64,000 nucleotides of DNA, from NCBI GenBank assembly GCA_009746045.1, contig RPFO01000296.1, positions 2,994,798 to 3,058,797 on the forward strand, read 5' to 3'. A program made the position numbers and the translations under genes. This document shows positions 2,305 through 63,691 of the stretch, piece after piece (positions within the stretch are counted from its first letter, which is position 1; each line of letters begins with the position of its first letter). Under the pieces are notes generated by a model, which was given only the letters and a program-made list of their open reading frames with translations, did not search any database and was not told the DNA's origin. This DNA comes from Mesostigma viride (lineage: Eukaryota; Streptophyta; Mesostigmatophyceae; Mesostigmatales; Mesostigmataceae).

Positions 2305-2309
2305 GCGGG

Positions 2310-2962
2310 AGTTAGCATATTGGGGCACCAATGTGCTAGATGGATGCAGGTTGAGGAGACCTTTCCAACGCCGTGTCAACCGCCTAGAACAGACAAGGGA
2401 CTAGAAAGTTATCAAGTCCCGAACTACTGCCGACCGGTGGGCGAGGGCGGTGCACACTCAGGACATAGTGGACAGGACACGTGGCAGGCCGTGCCTGCAC
2501 AGGCTTAGCCTGGACTCTCACGTGACTGGGACACAGTGTACTGAGGGCTCAACGGTACTGTGGCTAGTAGAAGCCAGTAACCAGCCAGCAGGTCTGCAAG
2601 GATGTAAGTCCTTGCAGGACTGTGGCAGGTCCTGTGCTGTCCTAGACACAGGATAGCCAGAGATTCCTGTATGCTGCCTGCAACGAGGATGCAGGCAGCG
2701 ATACGAGGCTCTGGCAATGTAGCGTTGCCCAGCGTTGCTCATGACCGAGGAACAAGGATGGAACGAGGTTGCATATAGCTCGAGGCTCAACGAGGCAACG
2801 AGCGTCTTCACACACGAACCTTGGTCGTCACGACGAGTGGCGAGCCTATCGAGGGTCGTAGGCCTGGTGTGAGGATAAAGGTTGCTAGCCAGCAGCCTAG
2901 GGTCATTCCAGCCGGCAAGGACCAGGAGCTCACAAGCTCTGCTGACGAGTTGCTGCGCAAAT
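2310..2962 (+). repeat. Element A 5' LTR
   Basis: Direct repeat of 10046-10699. The boundaries follow from where the copies start and stop matching and from the GCGGG duplication outside them. It contains a perfect 9-bp-stem hairpin (CTGCAAGGA at 2594-2602 with TCCTTGCAG at 2609-2617) and a weak TATA-like GCATATAG near 2769. The internal region starts CGTACTATTGC; element B starts with the similar CGTATTACACG, so this may be the primer-binding site, but it is not the usual TGG-type site. Confidence 0.9.
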
Positions 2963-5524: not shown

Positions 5525-6745
5525 ATGTTGTCCCCTGTAAATAGTCAATCACCCCTAGTGGGACGAACAGTTGTACATAGTAATGGGGGTGTCCCTCTTG
5601 TGCAGCAGCAAGGGGTTGGGAATGATGAGGTGCTTCCACTCAATGATTGCAATAACGCTGCTGCAGCAGTGGAATTCCCTGTGCCTGTGGCAGGTGCAGG
5701 GTCTCCAGTTGTTGGGGTTGACTCTGGGAGTCAAGCCGCCAGACTGGAAGGACCTGCAGCTTCTGTGGGAACCGGGGCTGGCTCTGGGAGCCGAGCTACC
5801 TTGGAGGAGGTCCCTGGAGCAAGAGAACAGCAGGTGGGTCGTGCTATCCCAAGCACACAGTCTTTGTCACGTTCCTCTCTGTGCAGCCAGGCTGACAGGG
5901 GGTTGAGCTATGCTCAGGCTGGAAACACTCTACACCATATCTTTGGTCACTCTAAGCAGGCAGAGATGTTTGCTTGGAAGATTGGCAAGGAGCCTTTGCT
6001 AGAGGCCTGCAGTGCAGCTGCTCAGAATTGTGTCTGTCAGGAGAATGCTGTTCGCCTCCCACAGTCCCATGCCAGAGAACCTGCTAGAGAGCGGGGGGAT
6101 ATCCAGGTGGACATCCAACACATCAGGGGCATGTATCTGTTGGTGGGGGTGGATAGGTTTAGCAGATATAGGTTGCTGACCATTCTTCCTGGAATGCAGG
6201 AGCATCAGCTGTTGATGGGTCTCCAGTCTTTGTTGCCAGGCTTTGGGGTGTACACCAAGGTGCAAGCTGACTTGCAGTTTGACTGCTTGATCAAGCTGGC
6301 TGACCAGCTTCCTTGTAAGTTGGTAGTGGTCCCTAGGGAATGCCATGGGCAGCAGGGAGCTGTAGAGAGATCTATACGTGAAGTAAAAACAGTGGTGCTA
6401 GCAGCTAGGAGTGTGCCTGTTGTGGCATCAGCTCTAGAGAAAGCAGCTTGGTGTAAGGGGATTGAGGAGCAGCTTAACCACAGGGTAACCTATTACTATG
6501 ATGGTGTGGCAGTCTCTCCCCTGGCATTGCAGTTTGGTATGCTATCACAGGACGTGGTGGCAGCCTGCCTGAAGAAGGCAGACAGGGTGTTTTCCAGATT
6601 GAGGCGTAAGGACAAGGGTTGGAAAATGCTGAGGCCCCAGGTGGGACTGAGGGTCAGGATGTGGAAGGAACCGTCATTACCAGGCAAGCGTGGCAAGTGG
6701 CAAGATGGGCAGGTAACCCATGTTGAGAAGCTAACCATTCTTGTC
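5525..6745 (+). pseudogene. pol: Element A pol, part 1: integrase
   Basis: After a Gly/Ala-rich linker comes a zinc-binding-like block, LHHIFGH...C...CVC, comparable to the HHCC domain of retroviral integrases. The catalytic core follows with D in IQVDIQHIRGM, D in VQADLQFD and E in GQQGAVERSIREVK, the D,D-E triad of Copia integrases. The core ends with an SH3-like C-terminal module (GWKMLRPQVG, MWKEPSLPGKRGKW). The enzyme would join the cDNA ends to chromosomal DNA. There is no protease between gag and this domain. The frame breaks near 6745 and continues in another frame, so this copy of pol is broken. Confidence 0.88.
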
Positions 6746-6747
6746 TG

Positions 6748-8382
6748 GTGGCTTTGGAGAGTAATCCCAAGCACGTGTACAGGCTATCCTGGGCTCACGT
6801 CAAGGAGAGAAGGCCAACTGCAATCTGGCCTGAAGACGGCCCTGATCCTCCCTTGGAGGGAGATGAGCAGGATGAGAGCCAGGCAGCAGATGCTAACCCA
6901 CCATGCTTGGATTATGGTCTGTCCTGGATGGATGAGGGTGAGCAGGAGTCTGCTGAGACGTCTGTCACAAGGCCAGAGGTGGCCAGGGCTGCACCACAGT
7001 CCAGGGGGCTGCTTATGGCGGACATCATTCGAGCTCTGCAGAACAGCAAGCGTGATCCCAAGGTATCTAAGCTCACGGGATGGGGGTCATGTGGGGCACC
7101 AGCACTAGAAGTGGATACCAACTCACAGGTGTCCATTCTAAGGGTAGAGGATGCTGCAGGCTTGCAGTGGTCATCCCCTAGCTGCCTAGCTGTGTCTGAT
7201 TTCTCTGGGAATGTGTCCATGAAGATCTTGGGAGAAGTGAGTGTGCCTATCCTGGGGGTGCCCACCACGTTCAGTGTGGTTGAAGGGTATCAGGGGCCTG
7301 CCATTCTAGGTCAGAACTTCTTGTGCTTACCAGGGGTGAGGATATCCTCTGAGGAGCTAGCATTAGAAGGGCAGGGCCGCCTTCCCTTGCAGAGATATCG
7401 CTACTCCCAGGGTCTTAGTGTGGCTGTAAGGGCTGTGAGGGGTCTAGAGGCAGAGGGTCCTGATACAAAGGAGCCCATTGCTGGGGACCTGCTGATCCTC
7501 CCTACTACGTTTGACCCACGTGAGTTGGGTGTGCAGAGGTACCAGATCCCAGGAACGAGTCCTGTACCTTGGCGCAAGCTAGTGGAGATGATGCAAAGCC
7601 CCAAGATGGCTAAGGCATGGACTCTTGGCTTTGTTGCTTCTGGGCATGAGTGGATAGTTGCCAACTGTGCAGAGCCTGTGGATGTCCTCCCTGAGGATCA
7701 CCAGCTGCTCAGATTGATGTTTGTCCTCAAGCTCAAGGAGGTAGATGGCGTGCAGGTGCCACATGTTAGACCAGTTGTGACTGAGTACCATGGCACTGGA
7801 CAGTTAGCAGATGAGGAGCTTTACACACCAGGGATGCTGCATGATACATGGAGGATTTTGTTGTGCATTTATTTGTCTTTTCTGCAGAAGGGGATACCCT
7901 ATAGCTCTGTGTTGGTAGATTTCAAGAGGGCTTTTCTTAAGGGTGATCAGCAGGAAGCACAGGATACTTGGCGCACAATACCCCCTTTCTTTGTTAAGGT
8001 GCCTGCAGTGTGGAGGGCAGAGCTGAAGACGAGGTATTTGAGGATTCTCAAAGGCGTGGAAGGCCTTAGATCGAGTCCCATCATCTGGAGGAAGAGCTTG
8101 GAGAAGTACCTCAGGTCTGTCTGTGGTCTCTCAGTCTCTCCAGTTGATCCTTGTCTGTTTCAGGGTAGCTATGAGGGGCTGCCAGCGTTTGCCTCCCTGC
8201 ATGGTGATGATCTGCATCTCCTGGGCCATCCCACTTGGCAAGAGTTGACTCTGGCCAGGATCCAGAAACGGTTTGAACTGGGTAAGATCCAGTACATGGT
8301 TGAGAATGAGCCCATGGTGTTTTGTGGAATGCAGGCGACCTTGGTCCAAGCAGGGTACATGGTCCATCCAGCTGGAGGGTGG
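6748..8382 (+). pseudogene. pol: Element A pol, part 2: retropepsin-like domain and RT
   Basis: Starts inside the integrase tail (NPKHVYRLSWAHVKERRP, matched by element C). After an acidic linker comes a retropepsin-like domain: EVDTNSQVSIL (active-site region, Asn in place of the usual Gly), a mid-part with VSDFSG and GEVSVPILG, and ILGQNFL near its end. RT follows: HVRPVVTEYHGTG, YTPGMLHDTWR, VDFKRAFLKGD (first catalytic Asp), GLRSSPIIWR, VDPCLF and LHGDDLHLL, where HGDD stands in for the Copia YVDD. The order integrase-protease-RT differs from canonical Copia. A second frameshift near 8382 moves RNase H to another frame. Confidence 0.87.
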
Positions 8383-9109
8383 TAAGGATTATCCTCAGCA
8401 GATCATAGATGCCTTGCAGGAGCCCATCACCCAGGCCAGATGTGCAACAATACGAGGTATGTTGGCATGGCTGGCCAGCATTTGTGCTCCTGACCTGTTG
8501 GTACTGAGTCGGTTGACCGATTCCCAACTGGTTGAGGTGGGTGCTGAGAGAGTGGTAGAGGCTGTTCGCATGTCTCCCCCTCTCATGCTGGGTCCTTTGG
8601 ATTTGTACAGGCCTTTTGACATGATGCTCTATGTGGACAGTTCTATGGATAGTAGGAAGGTCACAGAGGTCAGGGGCCGTGCAGCAGCATTAATATCCCT
8701 GGTGCAGGAACAGTCCTCTCTGGTCTGCTGGTACAGTCGGTTGCAGAACAGGGTAACTCCCAGCAGTGACATTGCTGAGTGCAGGGCAATCTGTGAAGGG
8801 CTTCATACTGCTCTTTACTTGAGGGAGCTATTTTACCAGCTATGTCAAGTGGCTTCCTGTCGGTTGCAGATGCACACACTGGTAAGAACTGACAGCATGG
8901 GCATGGTGCAGTTTGTGCACAGGCAGCTGGCCAGGAGCAGGGACCTTGATTATTTGTTGCTCAAGGAAATGTCTTGCTTAGCTAACATTGAACATGTGGC
9001 TGGCGTGGACAACCCTGCAGATGCTCTCACCAAGCTGGAGGAGAAGGCTGAGCTGCAATACCCTTTGCTTCGTGGGCTCATGGCCTCCAAGGGGGGAGGG
9101 CCAGAGTAG
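8383..9109 (+). pseudogene. pol: Element A pol, part 3: RNase H
   Basis: Continues after the frameshift as GKDYPQQIIDALQEPITQ. The Copia-type RNase H block follows: YVDSSMDSRKVTEVRGR (first acidic residue), SSDIAECRAICEG (Glu), LVRTDSMGMVQFVH (Asp), HVAGVDNPADALTKL. This enzyme removes RNA from the RNA:DNA hybrid. It ends at 9109 with no further domain. Residues match elements B and C closely, so only the frame is damaged. Confidence 0.87.
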
Positions 9110-10045
9110 ACCAAACAGCCTTGCTCTAGGTGGGAGGCATCCCAGTGGGCTGGGCAGCCACGTGGTGGCTGACAGCAGGTCCTTCAGAGTTCAGACACAC
9201 TCTGCTGGACAGGGGTCAGGGTGGAGTCACTCCCCTGGCTGAGAATTTCGCCTGGCTCTGTCATGGAGCTGCAGAAGAGTCTTAAGGACTTTGTAATGGG
9301 CCTTGGGTCTTCATGGAATGGACCCTGCAAGGGCAGCCCAAGTGTTGGCTCTAACAGGTTGCTGTACATTTGTATATATTCTCTGTAACCAACCTGTTGC
9401 ATGCTAATAAAATCCCTGGTTGTGTGACCATGTTGGACGTGGTTGCCAGGGGCCTCACTATGGGTTATACTCCTTTATAATAAAACATAATCTTGTTATT
9501 GTCATGTTTGTTGTTTGTGATGCTCAGTTCCAGGAGCTGATCCAAACCTGGAGGAGATGGGGTGGGGTTCGATTCCCCAGCTGACCTCAGCCTGGCATGT
9601 ATGAATCCTGAGTTTATCCCTCAGTGAGGACATGGGCTCCCCATGTGTTGGCTAACATTTGTCAGGGCTCTCTCAGTCTTTGGAAGGATTTAAAAGATAA
9701 AGGAGGCTCCGTGGCGGGCGCCATATGAACGGGCGCCTGTGATAACTGGATGACCAGGAACTCACAATAGTACGTTCATGGACTCCTCTATCCAAACTCC
9801 TCTGACTAAGTGAAGACCTAACTTTAATCTACACCAGGTTCCCAAAGAAAGGGTTGGGATGTCATGTGGGTCAGAGGGCAACCTTTGAACCAATGAGCAG
9901 GCCTAGCTAATATTTGGAGGCACCTCAGGTTCCAAAAGAAAAGGCAGGTCTGGTCTCTGGGAGGGATCAGATGTCTGAAGGCTTGTGGGGACAGTGGCTG
10001 ATAGGTTCTCAGGCTGGTCCAAGCTCCAAAACAAGAAAGGGTTGG
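9110..10045 (+). other. Element A 3' untranslated region
   Basis: About 0.94 kb without a gene. It contains AATAAA at 9406-9411, a T-arm/B-box-like motif at 9564-9578 (separate entry) and a pair of GGGCGCC boxes near 9717-9738. A similar pair of GGCGCC boxes sits in the same region of element B (about 15896-15920). It ends in the purine tract before the 3' LTR. Confidence 0.55.
9564..9578 (+). promoter_or_regulatory. tRNA T-arm / Pol III B-box-like motif in element A
   Basis: GGGGTTCGATTCCCC can fold as a 4-bp stem with the 7-base loop TTCGATT, as in a tRNA T-arm, and matches the Pol III B-box consensus GGTTCGANNCC. About 40 bases upstream, GCTCAGTTCCAGGAGC resembles a D-arm. The same core occurs in the 3' region of elements B and C. 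Confidence 0.6.
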
Positions 10046-10699
10046 AGTTAGCATATTGGGGCACCAATGTGCTAGATGGATGCAGGTTGAGGAGACCTTT
10101 CCAACGCCGTGTCAACCGCCTAGAACAGACAAGGGACTAGAAAGTTATCAAGTCCCGAAGTACTGCCGACCGGTGGGCGAGGGCGGTGCACACTCAGGGC
10201 ATAGTGGACAGGACACGTGGCAGGCCGTGCCTGCACAGGCTTAGCCTGGACTCTCACGTGACTGGGACACAGTGTACTGAGGGCTCAACGGTACTGTGGC
10301 TAGTAGAAGCCAGTAACCAGCCAGCAGGTCTGCAAGGATGTAAGTCCTTGCAGGACTGTGGCAGGTCCTGTGCTGTCCTAGACACAGGATAGCCAGAGAT
10401 TCCTGTATGCTGCCTGCAACAAGGATGCAGGGCAGCGATACGAGGCTCTGGCAATGTAGCGTTGCCCAGCGTTGCTCATGACCGAGGAACAAGGATGGAA
10501 CGAGGTTGCATATAGCTCGAGGCTCAACGAGGCAACGAGCGTCTTCACACACGAACCTTGGTCGTCACGACGAGTGGCGAGCCTATCGAGGGTCGTAGGC
10601 CTGGTGTGAGGATAAAGGTTGCTAGCCAGCAGCCTAGGGTCATTCCAGCCGGCAAGGACCAGGAGCTCACAAGCTCTGCTGACGAGTTGCTGCGCAAAT
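10046..10699 (+). repeat. Element A 3' LTR with preceding purine tract
   Basis: Second copy of the element A LTR. Immediately upstream, 10028-10045 reads AAACAAGAAAGGGTTGG, a polypurine tract that would prime plus-strand DNA. Element B has a tract ending in the closely similar GGGATTGG directly before its AGTTA start, which supports the LTR boundary in both. Confidence 0.88.
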
Positions 10700-14794: not shown

Positions 14795-15417
14795 AGTTGT
14801 ATGAGAGTGAATGCCACGAATTCCGCCATGGTTCTAGTTCTTGCAGGAAGTTGCCTTTATTAATAACAAGGAAACGCAGACGTAAGTCACGTCACTTCCA
14901 AGACTGCACGCAGCACAGTCGACAGGGTCGCAGTGCCAAGAGAACGTGCACGCAAGAACTAGCGTCCCGGTGCGACCAAGTCACACATATAGGTTGTTAG
15001 GGACGCGTCCAAGTATTCAGCTGCACTGTCACAGCTGAACTGTCAATCAATTGATTACACAGACTCTGGCACGCCTTTGGCGCGCAGATCTATCAATTGT
15101 CCATACGGCTAGTCCTGTGGACCTATCCGTACTCTACTCAGCATCAATTGTCTCATAGGTCCTGGCGCGCTACAGCACGCCTACCTATCAATTGACCATC
15201 AAGTCCTGTACAAGTCCTGTCAACGTCCTGCGGACTACCAAAGTGACACTTGTACATCCTGTGTCCGTACGCGCCCACAGTGGCGCGCCGGGTACTGTCG
15301 GCACAGCCTAGGAAACGTCATAACTTTTACGTTCCTTAACCAAACGAGGCGTTCCAGGTGCCGTTGGAAAGAGCGTAACAATCTCTATCCATCTAACGTC
15401 AATCCTTTACATTAACT
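14795..15417 (-). repeat. Element B 3' LTR and polypurine tract
   Basis: Direct repeat of 23791-24410. On the minus strand the bases just before the LTR (15418 upwards) read AAAGAAAAGAAGGGATTGG, a clear polypurine tract. Because the LTR crosses the start of the interrupted gene, an ATG inside it gives the main part of that gene a false N-terminus (MAEFVAFTLIQ). Confidence 0.9.
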
Positions 15418-16357
15418 CCAATCCCTTCTTTTCTTTAGGGATCACATCCCCTGCCAGGGACCCTTGAAGTAGCTTGAAATGTCCTTCACTCCAGCTTGAA
15501 GCTTGAACAGATGCCATTGCCATTCCCCCAGCCTTTTCTTTTAAGGAACTGGAAAAGAAACAGATCTGCCACAGGGAAAAACCATTCCATGAGAAATGGA
15601 TAAAAACCTATGGAAGTGGCATTACAGAGTACCACCAGATATTAGAAGCACACAAAATTAAATATATACAGGTTAATTCTATGAGGTCTTCTCCAGGAAT
15701 TAATCCCATCACCTCGGTAGAGCCTCCAGTACAATGACCTTCTGGCGGTGAGTTACATTAATCCCAGATACTAATCCCATAAAACCCAGTACATATTCAA
15801 TATAAGTACAATAAATCCATGACAATTAAAATACCACTTGACAAAGTAAGGCGTATTACAATAGTTTGCCTGTCATTCTCTCAACAGGGTCTCTTGGCGC
15901 CCGTCTTACGGCGCCCGTCTACTTGCCAGATGGTAAACTGCCACAGCAAACAAATGACAAAATGAAACACATAGGCAACAATTAAATCCTGCCCTGGGGA
16001 ACTAGGGAAGTCTGAACAGGCAAACACCTGAACAGGCCAGCTTGTAGAAACATAATACCAGGGAATCGAACCCCGCCCTATAAACCCCAGAATAAAGGTT
16101 CCCAGACCATTGTGAGAGGTATGTACAAATATACATTTCTTTTAAAATAGAATACATGGTCTGTAATGGACCTGTCAACCTTGTGTAGTCAACAGCATGA
16201 ACCCCAGCCAAAACCTGGCTGTATCCTGATTAAAATCAGAGTGAGTGTACCATGGTCCATGAGCCTTAGTACAGACTAAAATACAGGTATTATGCCAGTC
16301 ACAATGCTGACACTACCACACAATCTGCTCTCCAATGCCCTATAACCAGGCACCAGC
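15418..16357 (-). other. Element B 3' untranslated region
   Basis: About 0.94 kb without a gene, AT-rich in parts. It contains paired GGCGCC boxes near 15896-15920 and the T-arm-like motif at 16061-16074, whose 22-base context (GGGC before and TGGT after, minus strand) is identical in element C. Confidence 0.5.
16061..16074 (-). promoter_or_regulatory. tRNA T-arm / B-box-like motif in element B
   Basis: On the minus strand this reads GGGGTTCGATTCCC, the same core as in elements A and C, and fits the Pol III B-box. No convincing A-box at the right spacing is visible, so transcription by Pol III is not implied. Confidence 0.55.
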
Positions 16358-18349
16358 TTAGACAGCTTGCTGAGATGGGTCCATCAGAGACTGAAGAACC
16401 TTGTATTGCACTGCTGCCTTCTGCACTAGCTTGGTCAAAGCATCAGCAGGATTGTCAACCCCCGGGACATGCTCAATATTGGCCAAGGAGGACAACTCCT
16501 TTAGAAGGAGATAATCCAAGTCCCTACTTCTGGCCATCTGCCTGTGCACAAACTGCACCATCCCCATGGAGTCTGTTTTTAGAAGAGTGGTAACCTGAAG
16601 TGGCCAAGGAGTGTTAGAAGTCATCTGATGAAGCAACTCCTTCAGATAAAGGCTTGTGTGAATGCCTTCACAAATAGCCCTGCATTCTGCCACATCACTG
16701 CTGACAGCCACCCGTTTGTGCAGGCGACTAAACCAGCTCACCAAACTCCCCAGGCCTTCCTGTCTGAGCACAAAGAGCCCTGCAGCCCTGCCCCTGACCT
16801 TGGAGACCTGCCTGCTGTCCATTGAGCTATCCACATACAGCTCCATGCAAATGGGTTGTGATAAATCCACTGCAGACAACAGAATGCCAGATGAAGCCCT
16901 GACCTGATCAGCCACTTTGGCAGACCCTAGCTCCACCAGCATGTCATCAGGCAACCTGGCTATGACCATAAGGTCTGGCCTGGAAATGCCTGCCACCCAA
17001 GCAACCATGCCCCTGACGTCCATAGGACACAGTGCCTGTGTGATGGTTGGAGGAAGCTTGCTAATGAGGGTCTCTTGATAATCATTGCCCCCCACCAGCC
17101 GCATACGCCATTCTCCCCCCTTCTTCACCAGTGTGGCCTCCATGCCCACAAACAGCAGAGGCTCATTCTCCACCTGCCATTGCTCCCTACCCAGAGGAAA
17201 CTTGGACTTAATGATGGAGATCAGCTCCTTAAGCCACGACGTGGGAGCTATCAGATGTAGGTCATCCCCGTGCAGCGAAGCATACACTGGCAGGCCTTCC
17301 CATTGCCCCAGAAACAGACAGGGGTCTACAGGAGAGACCTTCAAGTTGCAATGCTCCTTCAGGAAACGGTTGAGAGTCTCCCTCCAGATTATTGGACTTG
17401 ACCTCAGGCCCTCCAGGCCCTTGAGGATTTTAAGGAACTCAGTGTGAATGTCCCTCTTCCATACAGCAGGCACCCTGACATAGAAAGGCGTCTTGCCCTC
17501 CCACTTTTCCTGTGCCACATCTGCATCCCCCTCCAGAAATGCCCTCTTGAAGTCTACCACCACTGAGCCATAGTCCAAGCCCTTGTTGAGAAGGCCTAGA
17601 AATACACACAGCAGCAGCCTCCAAGTGTCATGCAACATGCCAGGGGTATACAACTCCTCAGCAGTGCACTCACCAGTACCCTTGAACTCATTCAGCACTG
17701 GCCTGACATGTGGTACCTTGACCCCGTCCACCTCCTTCATCTTGATGACAAACTTGAGCTTGAGTAGACGTCGTGCAGGAGGCAGGTCATTGACAGGTTC
17801 CACGCATTTCTTGGAGTTCCAGTCCTCCCCAGATTTAATCAGACCCAGTGTGACCTGGGGACACATAATGGGAGAGGACATGAGCTTCACCAGGCCTTGG
17901 TAGTTGATAGGGCTGTGTCCAGCAAGTGAGTGAGGACCAATGCCCAAACTGCTTGGATGACTAGCAGCTGGCAATATGAGGTCATCAACCAAGGGCTCCT
18001 GCCCCTGGCACACTTGCACACGCTTAACCGACCTGGTTACTGCACGTGATAGGTGAGTGGTCCTGAAATTAATCAGTGGGACCTGACCAGCCCCTTCCTT
18101 AGTCAGGAGAGAGGACGTGATCACTACTCCATCCTGGCATAGGAAATTCTGCCCCAGAAGAGCAGGTCCCTGATAGCCCTCCAAGACACAAAATGTAGTG
18201 TCCTGTCCAAGGATAGGAATAGATACCTCATCCAGTACCTTCACGTGTACCCCGCCACTGAAGTCAGACACAAACTGATAGCTGGGTTCAGTCATGCTGT
18301 ACCCTGCTGCAGCCCTGGTCCCAATGATGGAAACCTGAGAATTAGTGTC
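16358..18349 (-). pseudogene. pol: Element B pol, part 2: retropepsin-like domain, RT, RNase H
   Basis: One open minus-strand frame. The retropepsin-like domain starts at the insert border with DTNSQVSIIG and continues with VSDFSGG, DEVSIPILG and LLGQNFL. RT motifs: HVRPVLNEFKGTG, YTPGMLHDTWR, VDFKRAFLEGD, GLRSSPIIWR, VDPCLF, LHGDDLHLI. RNase H motifs: YVDSSMDSRQVSKVRGR, SSDVAECRAICEG, LKTDSMGMVQFVH, HVPGVDNPADALTKL. All acidic catalytic residues of RT and RNase H are present. The 1.77-kb insert cuts pol exactly at the Asp-Thr-Asn codons, and a frameshift lies upstream near 20150, so the polyprotein is broken. Confidence 0.9.
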
Positions 18350-20118
18350 CATCTTCCCAGTAAAAGTCCTAAATTTAGGACCAAGTGGAATTAAAAAATA
18401 TATATGCAAACATTAAAATTTGACCCTGGCATTCGTGCCCATGACAGATAACACACTTTTTTAGTTTCTATCAAAAACCTGGGGTCAAATAATTACATTT
18501 AGTGCATGAATGGGCCCTGCCACCTGCCAGACCTCAAAGCGCGAATTTGGCCAAAATGTGGGTTTTAGGACCATTAGGACCAATTAGTGTCAACGCATGA
18601 CCATGCTATCCTCACGGTCCCTTGAGCATCTTACAAGCGCTAGGGGACCCTACGAGGCCTTGGGATGGCGGGGCAGCGTATAACAAGGCCATACCCTGCT
18701 GTGGCTGCCTCTATATATACGCGTGATTAACGGTGTCACAGATGGTGCAGGTAATGCAATATAGGGTTGCATGGTTGCTGAGGTTGCCCGGCTTGAACAT
18801 GGCCCACCCCTTGCGGTAAACTTTCTCTAAGCATATGCCAAACCTTCTTTGACATCACGGACATGCTGGCCACCACCCAGCGATGAAAAAACATTGCATT
18901 TGCATTGCAACTAACACATGAATGCAGCCAAATCAAGTTACAAAACAACGTTGTGCCAACATGCAACGCTTTGTGAGCGAATTCAGGGTGCATGTAACAC
19001 GTAAACCATACTGTATATACTGTCTGAGAACACCCTGAACGACTGCAGGCCATAGGACCATGGTTTATAACTAACACATGAGTAAAACTGCTCTTACGCA
19101 TGTGTGTTTTAGCTGCAGCGGACGACGAAGATAGAGACGTAAAAAATTGTATGACGTAAACCAACTATGTGTGACAGTTATGTGCACAGAGAGCGTCCCC
19201 TCTTTTTAGGCATAGCTGGCTGACTCAAAACACCACGACAGCGTTGCCAGTTACACTCATGATCTAGGACAACCCGGCACTTACCTGCTACTTACGTCGC
19301 CTCATTCCAGATGGTTGCAAAAAAGTCGCTGAAATCCGCAGCGAGGTCAGCTTTCCGAGAGCTGAGCGCACCAAAGCTGGCCAACCGGTTCGACAATGAT
19401 ATAAACCACGCTTGTGCTGCGTTCTAGGTCCAAGAAATACCGAAAGTGAAGACCTATAAGGTGCGCTCGCTGCCCAGCCTGAACGTCCCTAAAACATGGT
19501 CGACAATGGAAATCGGGCAAGAATATCACGGCCCAGGCGCTCCCATGTCAAATACTCCGTTTCTAAACTCCAGACTATAATAAAAATCGTCCACAAAAAT
19601 TTCCTGGCTTGATTCGCACCACCATTGCTAATACACTAACATGTTTGTGCCAAAATCGACCCTCCGCGAGCAGGCGATCTGCGACCCATTTGTGTTGTGC
19701 CGCTGTGATACAGCGCTACACATAAAAACTTGCGCAGAAAATATTCACAGCCTTTAAGCATAACTAACAACCTTTCGTTTTTGCTACTGGGCGCCCGAAA
19801 TGATAAACGCACGTGAAAACGCCGGCCACGATTGTCAGGTCGCCATATCCACCTCACTTCATTCCCGCACCCACTTTTTCGCTCCAAAATCGGTTATATT
19901 TTTGGTCGAGGTACCTACTTTCCCGCCATTATACCCGGTACCCGGGTACGGAATCCGGGTACCATGTGCCGGTACCACGGGTCGGGTACATCATGCCGGG
20001 TACGGTCCACATGGGGTACGGTCCATATAGTGACCCCCCCCCCCCGGTACCTCGGTTATAGTGACCACTAGGACGATTTAGGACAAAGTCCTAAATTTAG
20101 GACCGTGGGATGATTAAC
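18350..20118. mobile_element. 1.77-kb insertion inside element B (candidate DNA transposon)
   Basis: Flanked by a 9-bp duplication ATTAGTGTC (18341-18349 and 20119-20127). Both ends carry the 16-bp palindrome GTCCTAAATTTAGGAC (18366-18381 and 20088-20103) and imperfect terminal inverted repeats around CATC(T)CCCA. No transposase ORF is visible; the longest frame (18736-19164, minus) is not recognisable. The right third (about 19930-20060) is dense in GGTACC-type palindromes. An 8-9-bp duplication would suit hAT or Mutator-like mobilisation of a non-autonomous element, but the ends match no consensus I know. Confidence 0.7.
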
Positions 20119-20127
20119 ATTAGTGTC

Positions 20128-21628
20128 TACCTCTATGTAAGGCAGTGTCCAGCCCCAGATTGCCATGCCACCTGAGCTTGGCTACCTTGGGCTGCTTCTT
20201 GGCTCTTTGTAGAGCCCCAATCAATCCAGCCAAACTTGTCCCCCTGGGCTTGGTTAGTGCCTTGGGCTTGACAGTTGACTCCCCAGCTGTTGACCTTACA
20301 GCCTGTTCAACAAGTACCTCTGCAACCTGGCCAGGGCTGACAGATTCCCCTGCAACAGATGTGGTCGTTGCGTCAGTGATGTCACTTGGGACCTGAAAAT
20401 CCTGCAGATCCTGTGAGCCTTGTGCCTGACTGCCCTCATTCATCAGGTTAGGCTTGACATATGACCAACTCAGCCGGTGCACATGCTTTGGTTCGTCCTC
20501 CATGCTGACCAAGCATGCGTGGCTAGCTTCATCAACCTGGGTAACCACCCCAGGACTCCAGCTACCACGTTTGCCATAAAGGCTAGGTTCCTTCCAAGCT
20601 AGGACCTTCTGACCCACTTGTGGCTCCAGCATCTTCCAACCCCGGTCCTTCTCCCTCAGCTTGGCAAAGGTGACATGTGCAGCATGTTTCCAGCCCTCCA
20701 GCACATGTGGTGGGCACAGGCCATGATATAGACCCATTGGGCTGACAGCAACTCCATCATAGTAGAAGTTAACCCTGCTGTTCAGCTGCTGCTCCACGTT
20801 CCTCAGCCATGCACTCCTGACAAGTGCAGGTGCAGACAAGGGTACCCAGTCTTCAGAGATGATCAATTTCTTGACCTCCTGGATTGCCCTCTCGATAGCA
20901 CCCTGCTGCCCATGAGCCTCCCTAGGTGTAACCAGCAACTCAGGAAGGGTAGGATCACCCTTGAGATGCTGAAACTGCATGTCCACCTGGATCCTTGTGG
21001 TAGGAAACTTGGCTCTTACATTCTGCAGGGCAGCCAGCAAGTACCTGTTCTTCATAGAAGGTAAATGCTCCAGCACCTTGTATTTTGTGTACCTGTCCAC
21101 GCACACCAACAGTTGCATGCCCCTGATGTGTTGGATATCACACTGCAGATCACCAATGCTCTGAGGTAGAGCTTTGGCATGTGATTTCCTGGGCTTGTTG
21201 GAGGACAACTGGCACTTACACCGTGAGGCAGCTTGCTGACACGCCTTGAGAAGGGGTGCCCTGCCCATACGGAAGGCAAAGTTGTTTGACAGAGAAGTGG
21301 CATGCCCAAACATGTTGTGGATTCGGGCACCCAACTCCTGGTACACAGAGGAAGCAGTCCCTGGCACAGTCAGGACTGTGCTGTCAGGTTGTCCAGCATC
21401 ACCATGCTGACTTCCATCCTGTTCTGACTCAGAGCCTGAGTCACCCTGCTCATGCCCAACACCTGGACCGCCAGCAGGGACCACATGCATACCACCAGAG
21501 GCCTTCACACCCCTCTGTGGTTGTACATTGGTTTCTCTCAAAATGAGAGGTCCACCCTCGTGCCCAGCACGAGGATGCATGGGGTCAGACATTCTTACAG
21601 CTGCATCAGCTGTCAAGGACGTCTTCAT
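20128..21628 (-). pseudogene. pol: Element B pol, part 1: integrase
   Basis: Minus-strand frame from ATG at 21628. After an acidic linker with no protease come IHNMFGH...C...CKC (HHCC-like), the core acids in LQCDIQHIRGM, IQVDMQFQ and GQQGAIERAIQEVKK, and the SH3-like tail (GWKMLEPQVGQ, WKEPSLYGKRGSW, HVHRLSWSYVKP). The frame differs from gag, but upstream of the ATG it stays open almost to the gag stop. It ends just before the insert; compared with A and C, one frameshift near 20150 precedes the retropepsin part. Confidence 0.88.
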
Positions 21629-21768: not shown

Positions 21769-22884
21769 TCACTGCTCCTTGTTGTCTTCTTGCTGACTGC
21801 CCTTTGAAGGCTGGCCTGCCTGGGACTTGTTGTTGTTCTTCTTGTTGTTGTTGTTGTTCTTGTTGCTGCCCTGGCCCTGGGCCTTCTTGAAGCTTGGACA
21901 CTCCTTCTTGATGTGCCCCCACCCCTTGCACAGGTAGCATTGTATCTTTGACTTGCCCTGGCCACTGCCCCCGTTGTCAGACGCGTTGCCCTGCTTGGGC
22001 TGACCACCCACCCGCCTGAACACCGACTTGGAGTGTGACCTCCCGTCAGGGTCGGGTGAATGATTGGCCTTCCGCTTGTTGTGGTTGCCCCTACGCCCTC
22101 CTTGGCTTCTGTCAGCCTCAGACGATTTGGAGCCACCCTGGGTACGCCCACCTGCGTGGGTAGCCTTCACTGCTGGCACTCCACCCTCAAACAGCTCCTC
22201 TGCCTCGAGTGCTTGTTTGATTATGACCTTGTAGGCCTTGAGGGTTGAGTGTGGGGCACACATGACCTTTAAGGAACCACGTGTAGCCTTGTCCAGCCCA
22301 GAAACCTTGAGCCAGTTTGTCAGGGCTATGTTGTCAGCAACATTAAAGCCATGAGCCCTGCCCTCCTCAACCATTTTACAATAGTTAAGGAAGTTCTGGA
22401 TCAGGTCTCCCTTGACCTCCCACCCCTGGTATTTATCCTGCCAATGGATCCCCACTTTCTTCCTCTGATCCTCTAGCAGCTCCTTTAACTCTGCCACGTA
22501 GCTGGACCAGGCCTTGTTGGCCTTCTTACACTCTCTAGTGAGGTCCTTGATCTGATCTGTACACTTGCCAAAAGTCTGGCTACCTATCCAGATCTGGTAA
22601 TAGTTTGTACCACCGTACAAACTTGGAAACCCCTCTAGCCCCTCCACAAACTCCTCAGCCTGCTTGGGCTTTGTGTCTGACGTGACAGGTTGCAGTTGGT
22701 TCACAATAAGCAAACCCTGGGTAGTGAGATCATAGCCAAGAACAGCTTGTGCATTATTATTATTGTGATGAATGTTGGTAATTTCTCCGGTAACCCCCAC
22801 GTCATCTACGTGAGCGGTCCCACTACCAGCACCACCATTATTCCCACTGGCTGGGGCACCTTTGCTACGGCGCCCGTCTGCCAT
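21769..22884 (-). CDS. gag: Element B gag
   Basis: Intact 371-codon gag on the minus strand, starting at ATG 22884 and ending with TGA followed by C (as in A and C). Residues about 70-230 form the helical capsid-like part (TRECKKANKAWSSYVAELKE, MVEEGRAHGFNVADNIA; the HGFN element also occurs in A). A Lys/Gly-rich linker follows, then one CCHC zinc knuckle, CYLCKGWGHIKKEC, at residues 316-329, and a tail with Asn/Lys runs. Pol lies downstream in a different frame here, so gag-pol coupling in this copy would need more than readthrough. Confidence 0.88.
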   Translation of the reverse strand: MADGRRSKGAPASGNNGGAGSGTAHVDDVGVTGEITNIHHNNNNAQAVLGYDLTTQGLLIVNQLQPVTSDTKPKQAEEFVEGLEGFPSLYGGTNYYQIWIGSQTFGKCTDQIKDLTRECKKANKAWSSYVAELKELLEDQRKKVGIHWQDKYQGWEVKGDLIQNFLNYCKMVEEGRAHGFNVADNIALTNWLKVSGLDKATRGSLKVMCAPHSTLKAYKVIIKQALEAEELFEGGVPAVKATHAGGRTQGGSKSSEADRSQGGRRGNHNKRKANHSPDPDGRSHSKSVFRRVGGQPKQGNASDNGGSGQGKSKIQCYLCKGWGHIKKECPSFKKAQGQGSNKNNNNNKKNNNKSQAGQPSKGSQQEDNKEQ

Positions 22885-23790: not shown

Positions 23791-24410
23791 AGTTGTATGA
23801 GAGTGAATGCCACGAATTCCGCCATGGTTCTTGCAGGAAGTTGCCTTTATTAATAACAAGGAAACACAGACGTAAGTCACGTCACTTCCAAGACTGCACG
23901 CAGCACAGTCGACAGGGTCGCAGTGCCAAGAGAACGTGCACGCAAGAACTAGCGTCCCGGTGCGACCAAGTCACACATATAGGTTGTTAGGGACGCGTCC
24001 AAGTATTCAGCTGCACTGTCACAGCTGAACTGTCAATCAATTGATTACACAGACTCTGGCACGCCTTTGGCGCGCAGATCTATCAATTGTCCATACGGCT
24101 AGTCCTGTGGACCTATCCGTACTCTACTCAGCATCGATTGTCTCATAGGTCCTGGCGCGCTACAGCACGCCTACCTATCAATTGACCATCAAGTCCTGTA
24201 CAAGTCCTGTCAACGTCCTGCGGACTACCAAAGTGACACTTGTACATCCTGTGTCCGTACGCGCCCACAGTGGCGCGCCGGGTACTGTCGGCACAGCCTA
24301 GGAAACGTCATAACTTTTACGTTCCTTAACCAAATGAGGCGTTCCAGGTGCCGTTGGAAAGAGCGTAACAATCAGAGCTATCCATCTAACGTAAATCCTT
24401 TACGTTAACT
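23791..24410 (-). repeat. Element B 5' LTR
   Basis: Direct repeat of 14795-15417. It contains several short CAATTGA/TCAATTG words and repeated AAGTCCTGT motifs. The internal region starts (minus strand) CGTATTACACG, similar to element A. Confidence 0.9.
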
Positions 24411-24738
24411 CCTTCTTGATGTTATCCCGAAGAGATTCCGCCCAACTTTCAGGAAGCCCGTCGTCACAGTTCTTCCTCTTCTTAATGCCGTTGCTCTCCG
24501 CCACCATGGCATTTAGTCTTGAAGCTGCGCAAGACAGAACCTCCGCGCTCATCTCTGGCGTCCTGTGGTTGTTTGCTTTCACGCGTTCCGCCATGATAGG
24601 AAAGATGTCTTTGGCAATTTTGTACCCCTTGTTCTCGATGTACTTGTCGCTCCAGGGACCGCAAAGTGCAGGCTCCCGGTCGTCCTTGGACAAGGGACGC
24701 GAACCATCGGAAACGGCCCCCCGCCCCGATTGCGCCAT
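24411..24738 (-). pseudogene. Transposase-like gene, N-terminal part
   Basis: Minus-strand ORF starting MAQSGRGAVSDGSRPLSKDD and running to SLRDNIKK at the edge of element B. Bases 24411-24415 are CCTTC, matching 14790-14794 on the other side of B. With B and one CCTTC removed, DNIKK continues directly into AFADLGTSEKDRG of the main part in the same frame, so both pieces formed one gene before insertion. The N-terminal domain itself is not recognised. It contains a helical segment (MSAEVLSCAASRLNAMVAES). Confidence 0.75.
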
Positions 24739-45891: not shown

Positions 45892-45938
45892 ACACCGAAA
45901 GGGTAAACCGCTCCCCCTTCCCACTGCCTCTTCCTACA

Positions 45939-49014: not shown

Positions 49015-49090
49015 GTTCCCTTCATTCTTGTCTTATGCGTCCACCGGTTTTTGTTTTGCCCCTGGCTTGGGTCGCCAGGGAGGGATGTAA

Positions 49091-57115: not shown

Positions 57116-57811
57116 AGTTAACGCCAAGCGCATTGGCGTGATCCTGATTCGGCATATCTCTGCGATTCCAGCGGCACCGGAACGAGTTCATTCCGACAAG
57201 TATCAAGAAAGTTATGGCGTTCCGACTTCCCGGTCGCGCGCGAGCGCGAGCCGGCTGTTCTTCTAAGTCGGACGTGAATATTTGCCGACGACATATGGGG
57301 TCGACAGTAATTCCTGGGCTGACAGGAATTAGGTGCTGTACCTACGACGGTATTGGATTAATACGTCGTACGCAGGAAATAGGAACCTTAACCTGTGGTC
57401 TGTTGGTACCGCAGGCTTAGTCCTGGACTTCTAGGTGCAGATGCAATAATCACTGTGGTGACTGTACTCTGTGGTCACTGTGCCTGTATGGCAGACCTAC
57501 TGTATAGGAGCTGGGCGCTGTACAGGTAGTGAATACTGTACCGGGGTGTTATTACTGAGCAGGCCTCCTAGGCTGCTCAGGACTAGCAAGCACAGTGCAC
57601 AAGTATATAAACAATAGGCCAGTGCCAAATGGGCATCTCTTGCGAGCCCGCCTCACGTGTTGTGCCTTGACTTGGCAAGCTCGTGTACAAGCCTCAAGTG
57701 TTGAGCGCTGTAAACATTATCCGATTTAACAAAGCTCCGTTTCCAACCATATTCACACATTGCTGCATTGCAACCATATCCTTCACATTGCGTGTGCGAA
57801 GAACGTTAACT
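57116..57811 (+). repeat. Element C 5' LTR (right border tentative)
   Basis: The left border is clear from the break in satellite sequence. A TATA box TATATAAA lies at 57604-57611. The right border is set tentatively at GTTAACT (57805-57811), because element B's LTR also ends in AACT. With no second copy in the window the end cannot be verified. Confidence 0.5.
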
Positions 57812-58822: not shown

Positions 58823-58924
58823 GTGGTAACACTTGGCACTTTCCTTTCTTGTTCAGTAGCTTATATTGCTTTAATTGCTGCTTGGCCACTTGGCTGGCTG
58901 TAGCAGATCTGAACAGAGGCCATC

Positions 58925-60100
58925 ATGGAGGATGGAGCTATCAACCAACAAGCGGGCTTTATGGGCTTCGGCGGCGCGGCGATGGACGAGATGGACGCGA
59001 TGGACGCGGTGGACGCGATGGACGCGGGGACGGCCAGGCGCTGGGAGACCAGGCTGAGGTGCCAGATAATCAGAGCCAAGGATCGCAGGGCGGGCAGCAC
59101 GCGCCAGCCGCAGATCAAGCGGCGCCTAAGCGACCAACCGTTGCTGAGGGGTACGCGGTGCTAGGCCAGTTTCAGTCCATCAAGGACAATTGGCAGCCCC
59201 GGGATGCTGAGAGGATGTTAGAGGACATGAACTTGTACACGGAGATATACAACGGTGACAAGCTTCGCATCCTGGCGTCTAGTGCCTACATACGGCAGTC
59301 GGCGAGGCGGCTGTTCAAGTTTGTTCGGGAGCGACACGCGGCGGGGGACACCTGGGCGGCGTTTATGACGCGACTCAGGTGTTCCTGAGTGACAAGAGGA
59401 CCATAGATGGGTCCCACCTGAAGCAAGAATACCTGGACTACAAGCCCATCAAGGGGCAACTAGTGGTCCACGCCTTTGAAGACTTCGTCAAGCTGAGGGA
59501 GGACGCCATGGCCAAGGGCTTCTTCGTCGCAGATCGGATGGCCATGGGCGACTTTCTCAAGTCGCTGCAGCTGGATCCGGTCACCATGGATAATGTGACC
59601 ATCCACATGCGACAGGTCCATGGCTGGGCAGCCATGACGGATCAGTTGTATGAGTGTTTCAGCGGCAAGTACGTGGGGGTAAGCGCCCTCGTCAGAATGA
59701 TGAGGAGGCCACTGAACCCACGGTTAAGTCCATGAGGGGATCGGGCCACGGGGGCCCAGCGTCCTCGAGAGGGCCTGAGACCTCTTCAAGGGGTCGAGGA
59801 AGGTCCAGGAGGGGGCGTGACAGAAGGGCTGGACGGGGGACCCCGCCGAAGTCGGGACATCCACAGTCCCAGTTTGACTTCAAGAGGGTGGGTGGTCCTC
59901 CCAAGGCTGGGCCCAGCAGTGGGACCTCACGGGACATCAGTCAGGTGGAATGTTATTTCTGCCAGGGGAAGGGTCACTTCAGGAATGAGTGTCCCTCGTA
60001 CCTGAGGCAGGAAGGTCAGAGCAAGCCAGCTCAGGGTGGCAGCAAGGACAAGGCTGGTCCATCCCAGGACAAGGGCAAGGGCAAGGCTGCTGATCATTGA
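58925..60100 (+). pseudogene. gag: Element C gag, frameshifted
   Basis: Gag-like coding over three frames: ATG 58925 with Met/Asp/Ala repeats, shift near 59020 to GDGQALGDQAEV and the helical part (DAERMLEDMNLYTEIYNGDK), shift near 59385 to KRTIDGSHLKQEYLDYKPIK and MAKGFFVADRMAMGDFLKSL, shift near 59685 to the basic linker and zinc knuckle CYFCQGKGHFRNEC (about 59951-59992). It ends at TGA (60098-60100) in the pol frame. The first shift lies in a GATGGACGC tandem run. The Gag would be non-functional as read, although pol is intact. Confidence 0.75.
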
Positions 60101-60106
60101 CTTGAG
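60098..60106 (+). promoter_or_regulatory. Candidate UGA readthrough site, element C
   Basis: TGACTTGAG, identical to the site in element A. The pol frame is the gag frame and stays open from the codon after the TGA. There is no ATG before the integrase domain for more than 30 codons, which favours readthrough over reinitiation. Confidence 0.55.
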
Positions 60107-63100
60107 CCTGCACACATCCCTGAACCCTGGAGGGTGCCCCCAGGGGTGTGTAATGAAGCTGCTAGTGACAGCAGTGAGGGGCAGCCCCATGCTCTAGTGA
60201 AAGAGCCTATTGGACACGATGGGGCAAGCTTGGTTACCACAGAGAGTATGCCAGCTGTAGCTGCAGTGGTTACTCGCCAACGTGCCCGCCATGGCGGTGC
60301 TGAGCCTGAGGTAGGACCTGGTGATGTGGACCCAGGTGGATCTCAGAAGCATTCTGACCGTGCAGGACTGGCACAGGATGGTCAGGATGAGGATAGGGCT
60401 GGAGACAGTCTGACAGGCACGACCCTGGTGCCTCCTGTACATAAGGGATCTGTACATACCTTGAGTGCTAATAATGACAATAAAAGGTTTTCTCTCTTGT
60501 ATGACATTGCCTCAAGGTTGCATACCATGTTTGGCCATGCAGCTCAGTCTTTGCAAGTTGCTAGACGGCTGGGAGGAAGTGAGTTGTACTCCATCTGCCA
60601 ACAGGTTGCTCAAGCTTGCAAGTGCAGGCTAGTTGCTAGAAAGCCCAAGCAGTCTCATGCCAGGACTCCTATTTTGCAGCCAGGCCATGTGCAGGTAGAT
60701 ATTCAGAGAATCAGGGGTTTGAAGCTGCTGGTGGCAGTGGACAGATATACCAAGTACAAGACCCTAGAGATCCTGCCTGACATGGAGAAGCCTACATTGA
60801 TTGCTGCTCTGAAGTTGACAAGGAGCAGGTACCCTGGGTTGGAGTTGTTGCAGTGTGACATTCAGTTTGAGTGCTGTGAGAACCTGCCAGAGTTTCCAGA
60901 GTTGCTGATTACACCCAGGGAGAGCCACGGCCAGCAAGGGGTGGTGGAGAGAGCCATCCAAGAGATCAAGACTGTGCTGCTGGTGGAGAGGATTCCAAGG
61001 ACGTCATCTGCCATTGTGACATCTGCATGGCTACGTTCTGTGGAGGACAGGCTGAACCTGAGGACTCCCATGTTCTTTGGTGACATTGCCATCAATCCTC
61101 TTATGCTGCATACCAGGATGCTGCCAGCTGATGCTGAGCAGGCATGGAAGGAGAAGCTAGAGGCCAAGTTCCTCAAGCTGAGGCAGAAAGACAAGGGCTG
61201 GAGTGTCCTAGAACCTAACGTTGGACAACAGGTTGTTGTGTGGAAGGAACCAAGCTTTCCAGGGAAACGTGGCAGCTGGCATGATGGGGTGGTGACCCGA
61301 GTAGAAGCCGCTGGCCATAAGTGCTGGGTGGCCATTGATGGCTCCCAAGCAGTGCACCGTCTGTCCTGGTCAAAGATCCGTCCCCGGGGAGGTAATCAAG
61401 GAGACCTCTTCCAGGTGCCCGCTGGTGTACAAGGCGGGGGTGACGTGGAGCTTCCTGATCAGGGTGCTACAGCTGTATCGAGCCCTCAGGGTGACCCTGG
61501 CCCGGCCCCTGGGGTACCTTCACATACGGTGGTTGGGCAAGCAGGCGGACAGGCTGCACCTCCGGAACGGCCCGACACCAGGCCTAGGGGTGTGCGTCTA
61601 TCAGATATTGTACAGGCTTTGCAAAGAGCCAAGAAGGAGCCTAAGGTGTCCAAGCTTGTCCAGTTGGATGAACCTGAGGTAGCTGCCATGGAGATAGATA
61701 CCAATGCACAGGTTTCTGTCATGGGACCTCAGCATACAGGAGAACTGCTGGTCGGAGAACCAAGTTGCCCCTGGGTGTCTGATTTCAGTGGTAGGACGCA
61801 TCTAAGGGTGTTGGGAGAGGTTACTGCCCCTGTCATGGGTGTGGATGTGACCTTCCTTGTCCTAGAGGACTATGATGGCCCTGTGATTTTGGGTCAGAAT
61901 TTTCTGGGCAATCCTGGGATTTCTATCAGAGCTACAGCTCTGAGAAGAGATGGCTGGGGGATGATTCCCCTAGAAAATTTCAGGACAACATTTCCAGTCA
62001 GGTGCAGGGCCAAGCCGGTCAAGGGTGTAAAATGGGATGAAGGGGAGGTGCCCCCAGCGGCCAGTTTGGTGATTCCAGCTGTGTTGCACCCCAGCAGTAT
62101 TGGCATAACTCACAGGAGCCTTGCTGCACACTCTCCTTTGACATATGACCAGCTGGTCCAAGAGATGAGCTCGCCTACTTTGTTTGAGGCTTGGAAGCTC
62201 GCCTTCTCCAAGGCATTGGAGGAGTGGTTGCAGTTTGAGTGTGCTGCACCAACAGACAGACGTCCCCCAGCATCAAGGAAGCTTGCTTTGAGATTTGTGC
62301 TGAAGAGGAAGGTTGTGGATGAGGTATCAGTGCCCCATGTCAGGCCTGTCCTGAATGAGTATCACGGCACGGGGAGTCTGCCAGGAGAGGAGCTATACAC
62401 GCCAGGGATGCTACACGACACATGGAGAATTTTGCTATGTCTCTACGTGGGGTTGCTGAACAGGGGAGCAGCTATGTCATCAGTGCTGCTGGACTTCAAG
62501 AGGGCATTTTTAAAATCTGATCCAGAAGTGGCCAGGAGGGTGTGGAAGCAGGATGAGCCTTACTGTGTTGAGGTGCCTGCCATCTGGAAGCTGGAGCTGC
62601 ATCAACAATTCCTGGTTATTCTGAAGGGCCTGGAAGGACTCAGGTCGAGCCCAATCATCTGGAGACTCACGCTGCAGGAAGCTCTGATCAGTGAGTGTGG
62701 CTTGAGAGTGTCTTCAGTTGATCCCTGTTTGCTGCTGGCCCAATGGGAGGGTCTGCCAGTGTATGCTAGTTTGCATGGAGATGATCTGCATTTGCTAGCC
62801 CCCACGACCTGGCTGAAGAAGTTTATTCCTGTCATCAGTGGCAAGTTTTCACTGGGCAAGGAGCTGTGGCAGGAGCCCAACAAGCCTGTAGTGTTCTGTG
62901 GAATGCAGGCTACCCTGTTCAGGAGGGACGGGGAGTGGAGTATCAGGCTTCAGGCTGGAGGAGATTATAAACAGACCATTGTGAAGGCCTTGCCAGAGAA
63001 GATCACCCAGGCTGCAGGACCTGAGTTGAGAGGCATGTGGGCCTGGTTTGCCAGCATCTGTGGTCCGTCTTTGATGGTCCATAGCAGAATGCCTGATGAG

Positions 63101-63691
63101 GTGCTTGAGGATGAGAAGCCTCGAGTCATAGCCCGGTTGGTGGAGAGTACCCCTGATCTGATTTTGTCTGGGATTGACTTTACCCAGCCTATCACCTTGG
63201 AGATCTTTGTTGACAGTTCCATGGATGCTCGCCAGGTTACCAAGGTCAGGGGGAGATCTGCTGCTCTGTTTGCTTTTTATCAGAGCAGGGCAAGTTTGTT
63301 CAGCTGGTACAGCAGACTGCAGAAGAGGGTCTGTATCAGTTCAGATGTGGCAGAATGCAGGGCCATATGCGAGGGGATCCAGTCCAGCCTGTACATAAAG
63401 GAGTTAATGCTGGAGCTGGCTTCAGTTACCCCTTGGACCTTGCAGATGGAGACGTTGTTGCTAACAGACAGCATGGGTATGGTCCAGTTTGTTCACAAGC
63501 AGCTGGCCAGGAGCCGGGACCTGGATTATTTGTTGCTGAAGGAGTTGGCCAGTTTGGTTGACTTGAAGCATATCCCTGGCGAGGAGAACCCTGCTGATGC
63601 ATTGACAAAGCTGCCACACAAGGCCCCAGCCCAGTACAATGTACTGAGGAAGCTCATGAATGCTGACTGTCAAGTCGGTCTATCTGTCTAA
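60101..63691 (+). CDS. pol: Element C pol: integrase, retropepsin-like domain, RT, RNase H
   Basis: One intact frame, the best reference for this lineage. Numbered from a GTG at 60134 (1185 residues): HHCC-like zinc block H130, H135, C155, C162/C164; integrase core D189, D242, E272; SH3-like tail about 355-418; linker; retropepsin-like domain about 515-600 with D522-T-N and ILGQNFL 585-591; RT about 715-930 with D787 (LDFKRAF) and HGDD 881-884; RNase H D1027, E1074, D1112, ending near HIPGEENPADALTKL. All catalytic acids of integrase, RT and RNase H are present. The protease triad has Asn where Gly is normal, and the domain sits after integrase. The product is probably made by UGA readthrough from gag. 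Confidence 0.92.
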   Translation, partial: LEPAHIPEPWRVPPGVCNEAASDSSEGQPHALVKEPIGHDGASLVTTESMPAVAAVVTRQRARHGGAEPEVGPGDVDPGGSQKHSDRAGLAQDGQDEDRAGDSLTGTTLVPPVHKGSVHTLSANNDNKRFSLLYDIASRLHTMFGHAAQSLQVARRLGGSELYSICQQVAQACKCRLVARKPKQSHARTPILQPGHVQVDIQRIRGLKLLVAVDRYTKYKTLEILPDMEKPTLIAALKLTRSRYPGLELLQCDIQFECCENLPEFPELLITPRESHGQQGVVERAIQEIKTVLLVERIPRTSSAIVTSAWLRSVEDRLNLRTPMFFGDIAINPLMLHTRMLPADAEQAWKEKLEAKFLKLRQKDKGWSVLEPNVGQQVVVWKEPSFPGKRGSWHDGVVTRVEAAGHKCWVAIDGSQAVHRLSWSKIRPRGGNQGDLFQVPAGVQGGGDVELPDQGATAVSSPQGDPGPAPGVPSHTVVGQAGGQAAPPERPDTRPRGVRLSDIVQALQRAKKEPKVSKLVQLDEPEVAAMEIDTNAQVSVMGPQHTGELLVGEPSCPWVSDFSGRTHLRVLGEVTAPVMGVDVTFLVLEDYDGPVILGQNFLGNPGISIRATALRRDGWGMIPLENFRTTFPVRCRAKPVKGVKWDEGEVPPAASLVIPAVLHPSSIGITHRSLAAHSPLTYDQLVQEMSSPTLFEAWKLAFSKALEEWLQFECAAPTDRRPPASRKLALRFVLKRKVVDEVSVPHVRPVLNEYHGTGSLPGEELYTPGMLHDTWRILLCLYVGLLNRGAAMSSVLLDFKRAFLKSDPEVARRVWKQDEPYCVEVPAIWKLELHQQFLVILKGLEGLRSSPIIWRLTLQEALISECGLRVSSVDPCLLLAQWEGLPVYASLHGDDLHLLAPTTWLKKFIPVISGKFSLGKELWQEPNKPVVFCGMQATLFRRDGEWSIRLQAGGDYKQTIVKALPEKITQAAGPELRGMWAWFASICGPSLMVHSRMPDEVLEDEKPRVIARLVESTPDLILSGIDFTQPITLEIFVDSSMDARQVTKVRGRSAALFAFYQSRASLFSWYSRLQKRVCISSDVAECRAICEGIQSSLYIKELMLELASVTPWTLQMETLLLTDSMGMVQFVHKQLARSRDLDYLLLKELASLVDLKHIPGEENPADALTKLPHKAPAQYNVLRKLMNADCQVGLSV

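Follow-up and report, generated by a model that had tools for sequence, protein, structure and literature searches.

Where in its Pol polyprotein can a retrotransposon carry a protease? The question is raised by a 64,000-nucleotide stretch of the Mesostigma viride genome (contig RPFO01000296.1 of assembly GCA_009746045.1; hereafter the window), which holds three long terminal repeat (LTR) retrotransposons, here called A, B and C. Pol domain order is used to separate the superfamilies of LTR retroelements, and an earlier note on this DNA had claimed that in all three elements a retropepsin-like domain lies between the integrase tail and the reverse transcriptase. The observation is real: we confirm that each of A, B and C has a protease-like domain (PR) downstream of integrase (IN) and upstream of reverse transcriptase (RT), as read in open frames of all three families. 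Judged from their sequences, A, B and C are probably three families of one Copia-type LTR retrotransposon lineage, whose Pol consists of integrase, retropepsin, reverse transcriptase and RNase H (RH), with predicted stop-codon read-through and predicted maturation by PR.

A protease-like domain between integrase and reverse transcriptase

Element C carries pol as a single frame of 1196 amino acids (aa) on the forward strand (60101..63691, stop UAA). Its integrase (60488..61375) has the pattern HxxFGH...CxC, with MFGH at residue 143, followed by D200, D253 and E283, the last two separated by 29 residues. The retropepsin-like domain (61643..61981) contains EIDTNAQVS at 61691 (D533-T-N in the protein), VSDFSG at 61775 and ILGQNFL at 61886 (LGQNFL at residues 597–602). 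It is followed by a Copia-type RT (62276..62950; LHGDDLH at 62771, residue 891, with HGDD at residue 892) and by a Copia-like RNase H (63188..63670), which extends from VDSSMD at residue 1037 to NPADALTK at residue 1163, the latter within an HxPGxxNPADALTK motif near the domain's end.

In the window, the pol of A and that of B are interrupted, and the order was read in uninterrupted IN-PR-RT-RH frames of other copies, namely L037 of B (1208 aa) and L051 of A (1182 aa from the locus edge, from which its residues are numbered here, and 1196 aa by the search program). For C, B and A respectively, MFGH or IFGH is found at residues 143, 153 and 127, the first D of IN at 200, 211 and 184, the second D at 253, 263 and 237, and the E at 283, 293 and 269; the DTN of PR follows at 533, 547 and 519 and its LGQNFL at 597, 611 and 583, and then HGDD at 892, 906 and 881 and NPADALTK at 1163, 1178 and 1151. 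The order in all three families is IN-PR-RT-RH, which is neither the Copia order, PR-IN-RT-RH, nor the Ty3/Gypsy order, PR-RT-RH-IN, because IN precedes PR. The second D and the E of IN are spaced 29–31 residues apart in A, B and C, not 35.

The pattern DTN[S/A]QVS … VSDFSG … [IL]LGQNFL is conserved in A, B and C, and PR is an island of conservation flanked by poorly conserved linkers. Between families, identity is 18–27% in the N-terminal linker, where a Copia protease would be expected, 44–49% in IN, 15–26% in the IN-PR linker, 46–60% in PR, 27–42% in the PR-RT stretch, 59–63% in RT and 60–68% in RNase H. The nonsynonymous divergence (dN) of PR is 0.39–0.51, with a synonymous divergence (dS) of 1.5, 2.8 or saturated, values comparable with those of IN and RT; like these domains, PR is under purifying selection.

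The earlier note had also placed no protease between the gag zinc knuckle and the integrase, and this holds: Pfam finds no protease upstream of IN in L037, and the unconserved upstream linker contains a single isolated DSG triplet in A (VGVDSGSQA), a single one in B (EQGDSGSES) and none in C. This genome also has ordinary Copia families, which provide the contrast. We fetched seven control loci and scanned four (L038, L039, L040 and L041), the remaining three (L042–L044) being further copies of two of these by eye. All four scanned controls have Pol_BBD, gag_pre-integrs, rve, SH3_retrovirus and RVT_2, that is, a protease before the integrase (gag_pre-integrs fell below the Pfam cut-off in all four and rve in one), and a search for motifs in the linkers between their IN and RT returned just a stray DSAT and a stray DSGG. 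Pol_BBD, present in all four, was not found by Pfam in the lineage. Both points hold across three families with many copies, set against these four ordinary ones; the earlier note had taken the three diverged copies with their own LTRs as a sign of a stable architecture.

The RT-RNase H of the lineage is clearly Copia-type by sequence comparison, as the earlier note had it: hhalign matches this region of C and B to the RT-RH of four ordinary Copia families from the same genome at 97% (E 1.1e-10, 421 columns). Pfam RVT_2 matches stay below the cut-off (E 1.7e-6 in the B window copy, 4.2e-6 in L037 and 6.7e-4 in A) and none is found for C; against the Protein Data Bank (PDB), the RT-RH profile gave two unrelated matches only and a whole-pol sequence search gave no match. 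IN lies upstream of RT in A, B and C, as in Copia, and carries the HxxFGH/CxC and D-D-E motifs in each. By sequence, however, it is very divergent from the in-genome Copia IN, to which hhalign found no match. Pfam rve matches it weakly in A and B (E 0.012–0.043) and not in C, and of the 30 PDB matches to the IN profile 26 are named integrase or Pol protein, at a best E of only 0.09.

Copies, termini and the gag–pol junction

We searched the 440-Mb genome for further copies and scored only the best candidates; therefore, the copy counts are lower bounds and the identities are biased upwards. At least 61 copies of C were found (61/61 with a protein identity of 100% across 728 aa), at least 67 of B (98–100% protein identity) and at least 99 of A (99/99 scored at 100% over 425 aa). 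By hand count, the full-length open pol of C has 1196 aa in 45 of the 61 copies, 1198 aa in ten and other lengths in six; that of B has 1208 aa in 58 of 67 copies, and A has an open pol of 1195–1205 aa in 24 of 99. These counts, together with the readings of L037 and L051, establish that open-pol copies exist for each of A, B and C; the families are not relics. Over 2184 nucleotides, 20 of 30 C loci (best matches ranked first) show no difference from the window copy and ten show a single-base one.

The LTRs of the three families do not end in TG...CA, the termini that PMC12440569 gives for most LTR retrotransposons. On the forward strand, the 5′ LTR of C (57116..57811) begins AGTTAAC, ends TTAACT and matches the LTR of another C copy at 98%, and its 3′ LTR lies in the locus just past the window end, where it would be at 64438–65137. 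The LTRs of A, also forward, have the ends AGTTAGC...CAAAT (5′ LTR, 2308..2962; 3′ LTR, 10044..10699; 99.4% identity), and those of B, on the reverse strand, AGTTAACG...ACAACT (5′ LTR, 23791..24412; 3′ LTR, 14795..15419; 97.6% identity). By eye, each element is flanked by a 5-bp target duplication, which reads CATGG in C, GCGGG in A and GAAGG in B. Four further C copies were followed to their LTRs, again by eye; three have GAGTC, AGGTG and CAATG, and the far end of the fourth was outside the view. In all three elements the AGTT of the 3′ LTR is preceded by a purine-rich stretch whose last bases are ATTGG or GTTGG.

In each family, gag ends in a UGA and pol continues in the same frame. The gag of A (4445..5518, forward) encodes a CCHC zinc knuckle, as does that of B (21769..22884, reverse), where the knuckle is below the Pfam cut-off; the gag of C (58913..60100, forward) is broken into several frames, with a CCHC knuckle at about 59951–59992. 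The junction reads UGA CUU GAG in A (window copy), UGA CUG UCU GAG in B (L037) and UGA CUU GAG in C (60098..60106), the frame being unchanged across the stop. Among the 30 C loci, 26 junctions were readable, with UGA CUU GAG in 19 and UGA UAU GAG in four. Gag is broken in all five C copies that were read, including the window copy. Because the breaks are not all at the same places, Gag could be supplied in trans from intact copies.

These features suggest a life cycle in which Gag with its CCHC knuckle would be the usual product and Gag-Pol would arise when the in-frame UGA is occasionally read through. Inside the particle, PR would join two Gag-Pol chains as a dimer, each subunit contributing one catalytic Asp from its DTN; PR could then excise itself from between IN and RT and free Gag, IN and RT-RH. 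RT-RH would copy the RNA, priming the plus strand at the purine tract that precedes AGTT, and IN would insert the copy, producing the 5-bp target duplications that are observed.

Nature and origin of the protease-like domain

A profile search with the PR domain, a check that the earlier note had proposed, matched only retroviral-type proteases in PDB (17/17, then 22/22 matches) at weak E values, and the reversed-sequence control gave no matches. The matches are not independent, because many are variants of human immunodeficiency virus 1 (HIV-1) protease. The profile alignment is in register (45–95 against 47–97), with weak scores. Structure prediction had been set beforehand as the test that could refute the fold; the resulting model of PR has low confidence (mean pLDDT 47.8), so that its agreement with a retropepsin fold falls short of proof. 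With this low-confidence model, ranks 1–11 in Foldseek are retropepsin folds, as are 50 of 50 among the matches listed by VIA-align, and the structural alignments are in register from D33/T34 to about position 110. D33 of the model opens the alignments at position 26 of the protease of Mason–Pfizer monkey virus (M-PMV) and position 30 of that of feline immunodeficiency virus (FIV), and T34 at position 26 of those of HIV-1 and equine infectious anaemia virus (EIAV); we compared the aligned positions in these four proteases with what we take to be their catalytic residue numbers. An AF2 model of PR-RT-RH from three sequences was uninformative (pLDDT 34.2).

Several observations weigh against a lineage that is alive and matured by its own retropepsin. 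The profile scores are weak throughout and the model is of low confidence, as would be expected if the domain were some other beta-rich domain with chance motifs; we hold this to be highly improbable, given that every PDB profile match is a retroviral-type protease, that the reversed control is clean and that the 50 VIA-align matches listed agree. More weight attaches to the active site. DTN stands at the expected position in A, B and C, where the catalytic motif would be D[TS]G; the Gly is Asn in all three families, in contrast to the DTGA or DSGA of six gag-asp_proteas stretches from the same genome (L045–L050). The domain could then be a retropepsin fold that no longer cleaves, its degenerate active site being kept for dimerisation or for shaping RT, with maturation performed by a host protease or absent. 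We consider this unlikely: the Asp and Thr are invariant, purifying selection acts on the entire domain as it does on IN and RT, and Asn is able to adopt the backbone shape that Gly takes at that position. Two points concern the copies instead. In the remaining three of the 26 readable C junctions the length differs and pol lies in another frame, so the gag-UGA-pol joining is not constant, and the LTR pairs of C copies L032, L034 and L035 are only 98.4, 98.7 and 99.4% alike (0.6–1.6% divergence), which is unexplained beside their family's near-identical pol.

If a retropepsin does sit between IN and RT, how did it come to be there? By hhalign, the lineage PR has no detectable likeness to the Copia PR of the same genome, and it looks more retroviral or Gypsy-like than Copia-like, on sequence signals that are all weak. 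Consequently, relocation of the protease is no more likely than its replacement. While the interpretation in the earlier note is supported and essentially right, and the order is indeed unusual, "rearranged" may have been the wrong word for it. Under replacement, which is compatible with our reading of the lineage, the lineage lost an ordinary Copia protease upstream of IN and acquired a retrovirus- or Gypsy-like one upstream of RT, no Copia PR having moved. The lineage PR matches retroviral proteases in PDB, whereas the in-genome Copia PR profile matches no protease there but one unrelated chain; an ILGxN-type motif is present, the Pol_BBD of the Copia controls is missing from the Pfam matches, and hhalign with in-genome gag-asp_proteas domains (L045–L048) keeps register from DTN to ILG. 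That alignment has a probability of 0.4, and hhalign is significant for neither source; a moved Copia PR may simply have evolved fast, and we put replacement forward tentatively. The integrase may have moved instead, coming in front of an ancestral PR-RT-RH block that stayed intact as in Gypsy elements and retroviruses. This history, also compatible with our reading, agrees with the contiguity of PR-RT-RH and with an IN too divergent to match that of Copia, including its short D to E spacing, but it is doubtful, as RT-RH is clearly Copia-type and Copia already has IN before RT. Proteases of the gag-asp_proteas type are abundant in this genome (150 scored of 2001 candidates).

Other features of the window and known systems

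The window copy of A has its pol at 5525..9109 (forward), where the IN-PR-RT-RH order extends over three frames, with the retropepsin-like domain at 7060..7398 and EVDTNSQVS at 7108. In B (reverse strand), the integrase part of pol (20120..21628) and the PR-RT-RNase H part (16358..18409) are separate open reading frames, the retropepsin-like domain (18068..18358) containing MDTNSQVS. A 1769-bp insertion (18350..20118, reverse) lies at the DTN codons; its 9-bp target duplication, GACACTAAT, consists of the DTN codons themselves, and there is also a frame change just upstream. The insertion has a 20-bp inverted match near both ends, and it is probably a non-autonomous DNA element because its longest stop-free stretch is only 142 codons.

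Element C is flanked by large arrays of a satellite of about 71 bp in both orientations (about 35900–44400, 49700–52800 and 54800–57100, and on beyond 65137). A 1020-aa frame without a Pfam match lies at 44374–49771 and is enclosed by the direct repeats 44374/49216 and 49091/49637; this layout presumably resembles that of DIRS elements. At 26914–27893 there is a tandem array of nearly identical copies of a 170-bp unit. Scanned against Rfam at gathering scores, the window gave no match.

Passages of PMC6317226 and PMC3587641 give the Copia (Pseudoviridae) Pol order as PR-IN-RT-RH. A statement in PMC8742986 conflicts with them, placing the Pseudoviridae integrase upstream of the protease domain; we take the intended wording to be "upstream of RT". 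A limited open-licence literature search, with preprints and Repbase outside its reach, found no published element with the order IN-PR-RT-RH, and no relatives were confirmed in viral and genome contig collections, from which records near this genome may be absent. By its own account in one passage, a reference survey of plant elements removed all elements with unexpected Pol order as probably mispredicted (PMC6317226); lineages with unusual orders could be discarded as a result.

What is new here is the Pol order: this is a variant of the Copia-type LTR retrotransposon with several further oddities. Whether it is also an undescribed lineage of superfamily rank, combining a Copia-type RT-RNase H with a retrovirus-like DTN PR after a highly diverged integrase, UGA read-through and ends other than TG...CA, is a prospect that we place just short of even. 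If so, PR and IN could be placed or replaced independently within Pol, and the canonical orders would not be functional constraints. With PR after IN in many near-identical copies, it becomes testable in what way Pol order limits maturation and whether a retropepsin with DTN can cleave.

Compared with known systems, the lineage shares with Ty1/Copia its LTRs, a CCHC Gag, IN before RT, 5-bp target duplications and, after RT, an RNase H of the Copia type that ends in HxPGxxxxADxLTK. It differs in having PR after IN, no Pfam Pol_BBD match, the active site DTN, LTR ends AG...CT or AG...AT and an IN without hhalign-detectable relation. With Ty3/Gypsy, Bel/Pao and retroviruses it shares a PR directly before RT-RNase H and retroviral-like PR motifs, but its IN is ahead of PR rather than after RNase H and its RT-RH is Copia-type. 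Goodwin and Poulter reportedly described, in 2002, Gypsy-like elements with a Copia-like pol order, in which IN precedes RT and PR is still first; their pol order is likewise changed, while the present lineage has PR after IN and a Copia-type RT. Gammaretroviruses have gag and pol in one frame with a single stop between them, the same arrangement as in this lineage, where the stop is UGA-C and would be passed by read-through.

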